A DNA stretch of 33,006 nt from a bacterium (GTDB lineage Bacteria; Actinomycetota; Acidimicrobiia; Acidimicrobiales; Bin134): the NCBI GenBank assembly GCA_026709815.1, contig JAPOSH010000045.1, positions 1 to 33,006 of the forward strand, read 5' to 3'. The translations under genes and the position numbers were made by a program. This document shows positions 28,266 through 31,023 of this stretch, in pieces (position 1 is the first letter of the stretch; each line of letters opens with the position of its first letter). The notes below the pieces were generated by a model. The model saw nothing but the letters and a program-made list of their open reading frames with translations. It made no database searches and had not been told where the DNA came from.

Positions 28266-28784
28266 CTAAACGGTGATCGCCAAACGGGTCTGGAGTTCGG
28301 CGGCGTAGGCCGCCACCTGATCGGCTACCTCGCCCAGCACGCCGGCGTCGAGTCCGTCGGCCAACTCGGGCGCCCCGGCTTGGGCCAGCATGGGGGCGAT
28401 CTCGCCGGTTCGGATCTTGCTCACTGCCCAATCGGCGATGGGGCCGTGAGCGGTCTCGTCGAAGGGGACGATGTGGTTCCGCCCGCCGCCCCGATGGTTG
28501 TAGTGGTAGTGGGGGGCGTCCTCGAAGAGGTCGAAGCGCAGATATTCCCACTGGCCATCAACGTCGAACACGTGCAATGACACACCCCGGTCCTCTATCC
28601 CCAGCGGTGCGGTGCGGCGTAGCTCCTCCACGTAGGCCTCGTCGCCCCCGTAGTACTCCACCAGCGCCTCAGAGGTGAGGTTGCGGTATTCCACCCCGAT
28701 CTTGATGACTCCTGCGGGGAAGTAAGCGGTGTGGGCATCGTCGGGCCGCATGGGCGGCATGTCGTAGACGTGTCCGATCTCCAC
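28266..28784 (-). CDS. Conserved-looking protein of unknown function, His-rich core
   Basis: I do not recognise this 172-aa protein. It is soluble, with no signal or membrane helix. The N-terminal half has FPAGVIKIGVEYRNLT and an acidic EYYGGDEAYVEELRRTAP helix; the centre reads SLHVFDVDGQWEYLRFDLFED then PHYHYNHRGGGRNHIVPFD, where four closely spaced histidines could bind a metal. The C-terminal part is helical. The regular strand/helix content and normal codon use argue for a real gene. GTG 28784 is preceded at seven bases by TACGCT, which is the first unit of the 22-bp tandem repeat. It converges on the SDR gene, with 18 bases between the stops. Confidence 0.75.
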   Translation of the reverse strand: MEIGHVYDMPPMRPDDAHTAYFPAGVIKIGVEYRNLTSEALVEYYGGDEAYVEELRRTAPLGIEDRGVSLHVFDVDGQWEYLRFDLFEDAPHYHYNHRGGGRNHIVPFDETAHGPIADWAVSKIRTGEIAPMLAQAGAPELADGLDAGVLGEVADQVAAYAAELQTRLAITV

Positions 28785-28790
28785 GGCGGC

Positions 28791-28878
28791 CAGCGTAGCG
28801 TATGGGGTTTGCCAGCGTAGCGTATGGGATTTACCAGCGTAGCATGTCGGATTTACCAGCGTAGCGTATGGGGTTTGC
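28791..28878. repeat. Four tandem 22-bp repeats in a divergent promoter region
   Basis: Four back-to-back 22-bp units start with CAGCGTAGC: 28791-28812, 28813-28834, 28835-28856 and 28857-28878. Units 1 and 4 are identical, unit 2 differs at two bases, and unit 3 is the most changed. The repeats stop sharply after CAGC of a fifth unit. On the minus strand units 1, 2 and 4 contain two overlapping TACGCT boxes. The array lies between the starts of the unknown 172-aa gene and the acyl-CoA synthetase gene. The 22-base period is close to two turns of DNA, so a bound protein would face the same side at each unit. Confidence 0.9.
28792..28797 (-). promoter_or_regulatory. Predicted -10 box inside the tandem repeat
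   Basis: TACGCT on the minus strand, formed by the first repeat unit, ends seven bases before GTG 28784. This would give a leaderless transcript for the unknown 172-aa gene. Confidence 0.5.
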
Positions 28879-28932
28879 CAGCCGAGGCTCGTTGCAGGGC
28901 GGAGGCGGGGTGGTCGCTACCATCGGATTCCC

Positions 28933-31023
28933 ATGGTCCAGCAGCGAGTCGACCTTGAGGAGTTCTTCCACCCCCGGGGGGTGGCGGTGATCGGCGGGGT
29001 GGACCGCGCCCAGACCGAGGACGAGCTGCGGGCGGCCATGGATGCCCGCTGGGGAACCGAGAACTGGCATCTGGTCAATCCCAAGGGAGGGTCGATCGGG
29101 TCGGTGCCCATCCATGTGAAGGCAGCCCATGTGCCCAAGCCGGTTGCGCTGGCGGTGATCTCCGCCCCGCCGGCGGCTTGCACCGGGGTGGTGGACGAAT
29201 GCGGGGCCATCGGGGTCCGCTACGCCTTGGTGTTCTCGTCGGGATTCAGCGAGGTCGGTCCCGAGGGGGCTGCGCTGGAGGCTGCGCTGGGGGAGGCGGG
29301 CCGCCGCAACGGCATCCGCATCTTCGGCCCCAACACCAACACCAACGCCTTCGAGCCCGTGCCCGAGGTGCCCGGGCTGCGAGGGGGCAAGATCGGGGTG
29401 GTCACCCAGTCGGGCCACAACGGCCGGCCCATCGTGCAGGGAGTGCACTTCGGCATCGGGTTCAGCCGCCAGGTGCCCTGCGGCAACGAGGTCGACCTGG
29501 AGGTGAGCGACTTCATCGAGTACTTCGCCTACGACGACGACACCGCGGTGATCGCCGGCTACATCGAGGGGTTCCGGTCGGCCGACAAGCTGCGCACCGC
29601 GCTGGAGGCGGCCAACGCGCAGCACAAGCCGGTAGTGCTGTTGAAGATGGGGGCCACCGATGCGGGATCGCGCATGGCATCATCGCACACCGGCCACCTC
29701 ACCGGGTCGGACGAGGTGATCAATGGGCTGTTCGAGCAGTACGGGGTGGTGCGGGTGCGCGATCTCGACGAGCTGCTGGAGACGGCCGCCCTCTTCGCCA
29801 AGCTGGGGCCGGATGTGGCCGAAGGGGCTGGGCTGTACTCCATTTCCGGGGGTTCGAGCACGCTGATGGCCGAGGCCGCCGAGCTGGCCGGTGTTGCCGT
29901 GCCCCAGCTCGCCCAGTCCACCCAGGAGAAGCTCCACCGTCACATCCCCGCCTATCTGTCGGTGTCGAACCCGGTGGACAACGGGGGCGCGTTCATCACT
30001 GCTCAGCCGGCTGAGATCCGCCGCCAGGTGATCCGAGACATCTGCGACGACCCGGCGGTGGGCTGCACGGTGGTGGGGGTGACCGGTGCAGTGGCGCCGA
30101 TGACCGATTTGCTGGGCGACGACATCGCCGCAGTGGCTGAAGAGAGCTCGATCATCGCCACTTGGAATTCGCTGAAGGTGGATGAGCCGGGCTTCGACCG
30201 GCTGGTGGCGTCGGGGGTTCCGCTGTTCCGCTCCTTCCGAGGCTGCTTTGGGGCGTTGGCCTCCTACCACCGCTACCAGCGCCACCGGGCCGGGTTCCGG
30301 GTGCGGCCGCCGCTGTCTGATGCGGTGCCAGAAGCTGCGATAGCAGCCTTGGGGGCCTCGCCTCCGGATGCCGGCGCAGTCCTGCGATCTTTCGGGCTGC
30401 CGCTGGCGGCTGGCCAAGTGGCCGCATCGGCCGGCGACGCCCGACGGATGGCGGCAGGGATCGGCTTGCCGGTGGCGATAAAGATCGCCTCGCCCGATAT
30501 TTTCCACAAGTCAGATGCCGGTCTGGTGGTGCTGGGGGTGGACTCTCTCGACCAGGTGGAGCAGGAGGCTCAGGCTGTGTTGGGCAGAGCCCGCGCCGTT
30601 GCCCCCGACGCCGCCATCGATGGGGTGGAGGTCCAGCAGATGATCGTCGGCGGCACTGAGATGATCGTGGGCGTGACCAGCGATCCCACACTCGGCCCCG
30701 CAGTCATGGTGGGCACGGGGGGGTTGTTCGCCGAGATCCTGGCCGACGCCGCCGTGCGACCGCTGCCCGTAGACGAGGCTGACGCCTACGAGATGATCCG
30801 GTCGCTCAAGGGCTTCCCCCTGCTCGACGGGGCCCGCGGCCGCCCGGCCGCCGATGTGGATGCCCTGGTCCAAGTGGTCATGGCCACCGCGACCCTGGCC
30901 ACCGCCCTGGGAGACCGCCTCGCCGAACTCGACCTCAACCCGGTCGTCGTGCTCGACCGCGGCCAGGGGGCTGTGGCCGTCGACCACCTCATGATCCTGG
31001 CCGACCCTACTCTCGGCCCATGA
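28933..31023 (+). CDS. NDP-forming acyl-CoA synthetase (acetate-CoA ligase-like)
   Basis: This 696-aa protein has the layout of NDP-forming acyl-CoA synthetases, which make an acyl-CoA from acid, CoA and ATP through a phosphohistidine. In order: CoA-binding Rossmann domain (about 8-140, starting FFHPRGVAVIGG), a succinyl-CoA-ligase-like domain (about 150-290) with the candidate phosphohistidine His252 in SSHTGH, a second ligase domain (about 300-450), and a C-terminal ATP-grasp domain (about 465-690, with GLPVAIKIASPDIFHKSD and ELDLNPVVV). The usual GPNC after the first domain is GPNTNTNAF here. The acid substrate is unknown. ATG 28933 follows TACCAT at nine bases, so the leader is very short. 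Its stop overlaps the start of the acetoacetyl-CoA synthetase gene (ATGA). Confidence 0.9.
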   Translation: MVQQRVDLEEFFHPRGVAVIGGVDRAQTEDELRAAMDARWGTENWHLVNPKGGSIGSVPIHVKAAHVPKPVALAVISAPPAACTGVVDECGAIGVRYALVFSSGFSEVGPEGAALEAALGEAGRRNGIRIFGPNTNTNAFEPVPEVPGLRGGKIGVVTQSGHNGRPIVQGVHFGIGFSRQVPCGNEVDLEVSDFIEYFAYDDDTAVIAGYIEGFRSADKLRTALEAANAQHKPVVLLKMGATDAGSRMASSHTGHLTGSDEVINGLFEQYGVVRVRDLDELLETAALFAKLGPDVAEGAGLYSISGGSSTLMAEAAELAGVAVPQLAQSTQEKLHRHIPAYLSVSNPVDNGGAFITAQPAEIRRQVIRDICDDPAVGCTVVGVTGAVAPMTDLLGDDIAAVAEESSIIATWNSLKVDEPGFDRLVASGVPLFRSFRGCFGALASYHRYQRHRAGFRVRPPLSDAVPEAAIAALGASPPDAGAVLRSFGLPLAAGQVAASAGDARRMAAGIGLPVAIKIASPDIFHKSDAGLVVLGVDSLDQVEQEAQAVLGRARAVAPDAAIDGVEVQQMIVGGTEMIVGVTSDPTLGPAVMVGTGGLFAEILADAAVRPLPVDEADAYEMIRSLKGFPLLDGARGRPAADVDALVQVVMATATLATALGDRLAELDLNPVVVLDRGQGAVAVDHLMILADPTLGP

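Follow-up and report, generated by a model that had tools for sequence, protein, structure and literature searches.

The 33,006-nt window analyzed here (contig JAPOSH010000045.1, the whole stretch presented above) comes from a metagenome-assembled genome (MAG) of an uncultured marine Acidimicrobiia genus (2.8 Mb in 244 contigs, 89% complete, and the only genome of its species in the comparison). Its subject is a 22-bp tandem array lying between two divergent genes, one for a DUF7700 protein and the other for an ADP-forming acyl-coenzyme A (CoA) synthetase-like protein, below termed the CoA-ligase gene. The features of the locus are as follows.

28266..28784, minus strand: DUF7700 protein gene, 172 aa, GTG start (Pfam PF24777, E=2.4e-29; orthologs in relatives)
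28789..28882, minus strand: 22-bp x 4.3 tandem array with minus-strand units CTGGYAAAYCCSAYAYGCTACG (Tandem Repeats Finder [TRF] and unit table)
28792..28797, minus strand: proximal -10 box TACGCT, ending 7 nt before the GTG at 28784; putative native leaderless promoter of the DUF7700 gene, from the 17 orthologs and the genus-wide positional peak described below
28797-28802, 28814-28819, 28819-28824, 28836-28841, 28858-28863 and 28863-28868, minus strand: six further TACGCT boxes (box listing)
28796-28801, 28818-28823 and 28862-28867 (TAGCGT) and 28840-28845 (TAGCAT), plus strand: four TANNNT boxes directed towards the CoA-ligase gene
28918..28923, plus strand: TACCAT, the putative -10 box of the CoA-ligase gene, 9 nt before its ATG and identical in 16/16 syntenic relatives
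28933..31023, plus strand: ADP-forming acyl-CoA synthetase-like gene, 696 aa, with ATP-grasp_5, Succ_CoA_lig and CoA_binding_2 domains

The array is the top-scoring tandem array of the whole window (period 22, 4.3 copies, 86% matches, score 139 in TRF), and CCAGCGTAGCGTATGGG occurs four times at up to 3 mismatches against 0.09 occurrences expected in shuffles. Both results bear out the tandem repeat between divergent genes described in an earlier, sequence-only reading. That reading had carried the repeat on to 28932, which takes in about 50 bp of non-repeat DNA holding the other gene's promoter box; the array itself ends at 28882. The successive minus-strand units, beginning with the one farthest from the DUF7700 gene, are CTGGCAAACCCCATACGCTACG, CTGGTAAATCCGACATGCTACG, CTGGTAAATCCCATACGCTACG and CTGGCAAACCCCATACGCTACG; CTGGCCGCC and then the GTG start come next. 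The distal-most and gene-proximal units are thus identical, and the two between them depart from that sequence at 5 and 2 bases. Counted in plus-strand order, units 1, 2 and 4 are ATACGCTACGCT on the minus strand, with two TACGCT hexamers overlapping by one T, exactly as first described, and the third unit keeps the gene-proximal TACGCT and lacks the other. Five columns vary among the units, none of them inside the 10 positions of the core GCTACGCTGG (0/5, P=0.03, a weak value given only five variable columns and units that are not independent). The unit is not palindromic, and one unit is bounded by a GCTGGC direct repeat whose copies lie 22 bp apart.

Altogether, the array holds seven minus-strand TACGCT boxes between 28792 and 28868, pointing towards the DUF7700 gene, and four plus-strand TANNNT boxes of the form TAGCRT, one per unit (three TAGCGT and one TAGCAT); the mean for both strands in the window is 0.17 TANNNT boxes per 94-bp tile. 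The earlier reading had rightly placed boxes on the minus strand and had left out those on the plus strand, which may be incidental or serve as weak divergent starts.

That the unit nearest the DUF7700 gene supplies a leaderless -10 box, as was also first suggested from its position, is a well-supported prediction. It draws on the box 7 nt before the GTG, on the orthologs and on a signal found across the genus. A DUF7700 protein is encoded in 17 congeners (79-91% identity), all of which have an ATG at the codon matching the GTG and a single TANNNT (TACGCT, TAGGCT or TACGAT) ending 7-8 nt upstream. Genes were predicted by a simple script based on codon usage, in a 400-kb portion of the complete chromosome of a second genome of the genus (G014) and in about 1.0 Mb of the source genome; TANNNT lay 6-9 nt before 8.6% and 5.8% of candidate starts, respectively. 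The same spacing occurred at 0.1% and 0.2% of internal ATG/GTG codons, so that the box is approximately 28- to 79-fold over-represented before starts in the sampled DNA. In 122 box-aligned promoters, neither a -35 signal nor a second motif stood out clearly above background. The start-proximal box and the want of a clear -35 signal agree with what has been published on leaderless actinobacterial genes (PMC3160421) and on Mycobacterium tuberculosis (PMC3898074). The DUF7700 promoter conforms to this class, with TANNNT at the 6-9 nt spacing and no -35 consensus required. It is, however, the only one of 234 sampled leaderless-type promoters in which the hexamer recurs at 22-bp steps, and TRF found no second start-proximal -10 array in the roughly 1.0 Mb and 0.4 Mb of the two genomes.

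In two other places in the sampled DNA of the source genome, repeats of different kinds lie near gene boundaries. On contig C9 (7358-7424), a 17-bp near-tandem repeat (GAAAGACCTGCCATGAA, minus strand) duplicates the start-codon region of a gene that, by inspection alone, we take to be leuD-like; each good copy has its own ATG, making this a start-region duplication at the level of translation. On contig C22 (2877-2975), three near-identical 33-bp repeats overlap the end of one predicted gene and stop about 33 bp short of the next.

The relatives, of which those with names are Acidimicrobiia MAGs, one being Candidatus Poriferisocius aerobius, reveal how the array is likely to have arisen. None of the 17 congeners carrying the DUF7700 gene has an array at it, each having one box, and neither the array nor a copy of its unit was found in any of 21 congeners and 38 more distant genomes. 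In 16 of these 17, the divergent CoA-ligase gene is present too, again with TACCAT 9 nt ahead of its ATG. The two start codons are separated by 152 bp in this genome, by 86 bp in the five relatives with the best alignment and by 75-78 bp in the others; the difference from those five is 66 bp, exactly 3 x 22 bp. As this difference amounts to exactly three units and the relatives have a single box, the ancestor had one unit, and three were gained in this lineage. In Ca. Poriferisocius aerobius the DUF7700 gene stands beside a different upstream neighbor, with TACGCT still 7 nt before the ATG; hence, the box belongs to the DUF7700 gene rather than to the divergent pair. Dispersal of the unit over the genome, which would have spoken for a repeat family without relation to genes, was also looked for: with up to 2 mismatches, there is no further copy outside the array in the 2.8-Mb genome. 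A scattered family (dispersed intergenic, REP, STAR or MITE-like repeats) is rejected, the array being the sole copy.

Taking these findings together, we consider it very probable, as to both origin and identity, that the array is a promoter tandem repeat, formed by duplication of an ancestral leaderless promoter core in this lineage. We propose three head-to-tail duplications of the 22-bp segment in which the DUF7700 gene had its single ancestral -10 box; the GCTGGC copies probably mispaired by strand slippage or recombined unequally. As the TANNNT box appears to be all that promoters here need, a 22-bp duplication can be enough to copy the complete recognizable signal. The proximal unit, with its native spacing, would still drive a leaderless mRNA starting at or near 28784, and the distal unit would retain the original upstream context, displaced 66 bp further from the start codon. 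The upstream boxes would be potential starts, with the box as apparently their sole requirement, yielding leaders of approximately 22, 44 and 66 nt; inspection reveals no obvious Shine-Dalgarno sequence before the GTG for such leadered mRNAs. The plus-strand boxes could likewise start short transcripts towards the CoA-ligase gene.

The sequence-only reading had held that multiplying the unit would multiply promoter boxes or activator sites. The first part stands, in view of the seven TACGCT boxes; the second finds no backing, as nothing outside the -10 core is conserved in the orthologs. A simple relation of more boxes to more expression is nevertheless doubtful, given the likely occlusion at 22-bp spacing and the loss of leaderless geometry at the upstream boxes. 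By a model of closely spaced promoters in Escherichia coli (PMC8830795), starts separated by 35 bp or less block one another, and here a polymerase bound to one unit would cover those next to it. As units at 22-bp spacing would thus exclude each other, we expect the extra copies to change expression modestly, up or down, rather than fourfold.

Several points weigh against the promoter tandem repeat as proposed. The transcription start is predicted from sequence; the source is a MAG, so that the copy number may reflect an assembly error, though ordinary reads should span a 94-bp array of non-identical units; the array may be neutral rather than selected; and, with GTG in place of ATG, expression of the gene may have drifted for another reason.

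The main rival, to which we give somewhat less than an even chance, shares the same origin and differs in consequence: slippage in a short intergenic gap would have caught the -10 box by accident, producing a neutral minisatellite without effect on expression, tolerated as the proximal box stayed in place. Indeed, the proximal box, its spacing and the DUF7700 gene are all intact, and other tandem arrays without relation to promoters occur in the sampled DNA of the source genome. Among the sampled arrays, however, this is the sole one built of start-proximal -10 boxes, and the cores of its units are intact while other columns vary, though the latter contrast is statistically weak.

We regard as unlikely a contingency locus, in which units would be gained and lost at a high rate and thereby tune the DUF7700 gene or the CoA-ligase gene differently in different cells or strains, as has been put forward for the M. 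tuberculosis repeats. It is suggested by the analogy of architecture with the promoter tandem repeats at the leaderless lpdA and cysG genes of M. tuberculosis (PMC12817950) and by the difference in copy number between species (1 versus 4). Yet no intermediate unit numbers were seen in the congeners, and DUF7700 has no known function tied to phase variation. Moreover, as many as 5 of the 22 bases are different between units; the array has thus not been freshly homogenized, which speaks against very frequent turnover.

Still less probable is an operator array, in which each unit would bind an activator or repressor and the repeats would raise its occupancy at the divergent promoters. The location between two such promoters and the core invariant within the array would fit, as would the period, which had been put at about two helical turns. 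That estimate is near (approximately 2.1 turns), but the drift of approximately 34 degrees per unit means that successive copies do not face exactly the same side of the helix, 22 bp not being an integral number of turns. The invariant core is also the -10 region itself plus GG, the remainder of the unit is unconserved in orthologs, the unit lacks palindromy, and the array stops about 35 bp short of a CoA-ligase -10 box that is unchanged from that of the relatives. We hold similarly little expectation that this is a bidirectional -10-only array in which the polymerase alternates between units and unit number sets the share of leaderless and leadered mRNA, and hence the mode of DUF7700 translation.

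As for the flanking genes, the reading frame of DUF7700 continues without a stop across the array (216 codons). A coding role for the array is rejected because there is no ATG, GTG or TTG upstream of 28784, the unit length of 22 is not divisible by 3, and the orthologs share the start codon position. The start codon itself is GTG here as against ATG in 17/17 orthologs, a change found in the same genome as the promoter duplication. The AlphaFold model of the DUF7700 protein is confident (predicted local distance difference test score, 89) and matched no PDB fold at E<=0.001.

Several parallels are offered by known systems. Promoter tandem repeats in M. tuberculosis have units of 58 bp (lpdA), 54-56 bp (cysG) and 57 bp (dop), and the number of copies upstream of the leaderless lpdA and cysG genes varies even within isogenic populations (PMC12817950). 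Like them, the array is a head-to-tail repeat with different copy numbers in different genomes, placed directly upstream of an actinobacterial transcription unit, a leaderless one in the case of lpdA and cysG. It departs from them in that their units, 54-58 bp long, are separated from the gene by 12 bp (lpdA) or 29 bp (cysG) and vary among isolates, whereas the 22-bp unit contains the -10 box itself and its 1 versus 4 copies are known between species only. The variable-number tandem repeat of clbR in the E. coli pks island also lies between divergent genes, and the copy number of its 8-bp unit alters expression (approximately 2-fold between 5 and 20 repeats; PMC7364221), though unit and lineage are different. 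The closely spaced tandem promoters of E. coli (PMC8830795) similarly line up more than one start signal ahead of a single gene; unlike the present units, the native ones are not copies of one another, and the occlusion in the model at 35 bp or less would apply here.

The array is a case added to a kind already known from M. tuberculosis, with lpdA and cysG as its closest counterparts. On the reading proposed here, promoter tandem repeats at leaderless genes occur beyond M. tuberculosis in a marine, uncultured class of actinobacteria, where relatives still show the one-copy ancestral state. The contrast between one and four units would bear on the choice that RNA polymerase makes among -10 boxes and on what becomes of translation once a leader is added.
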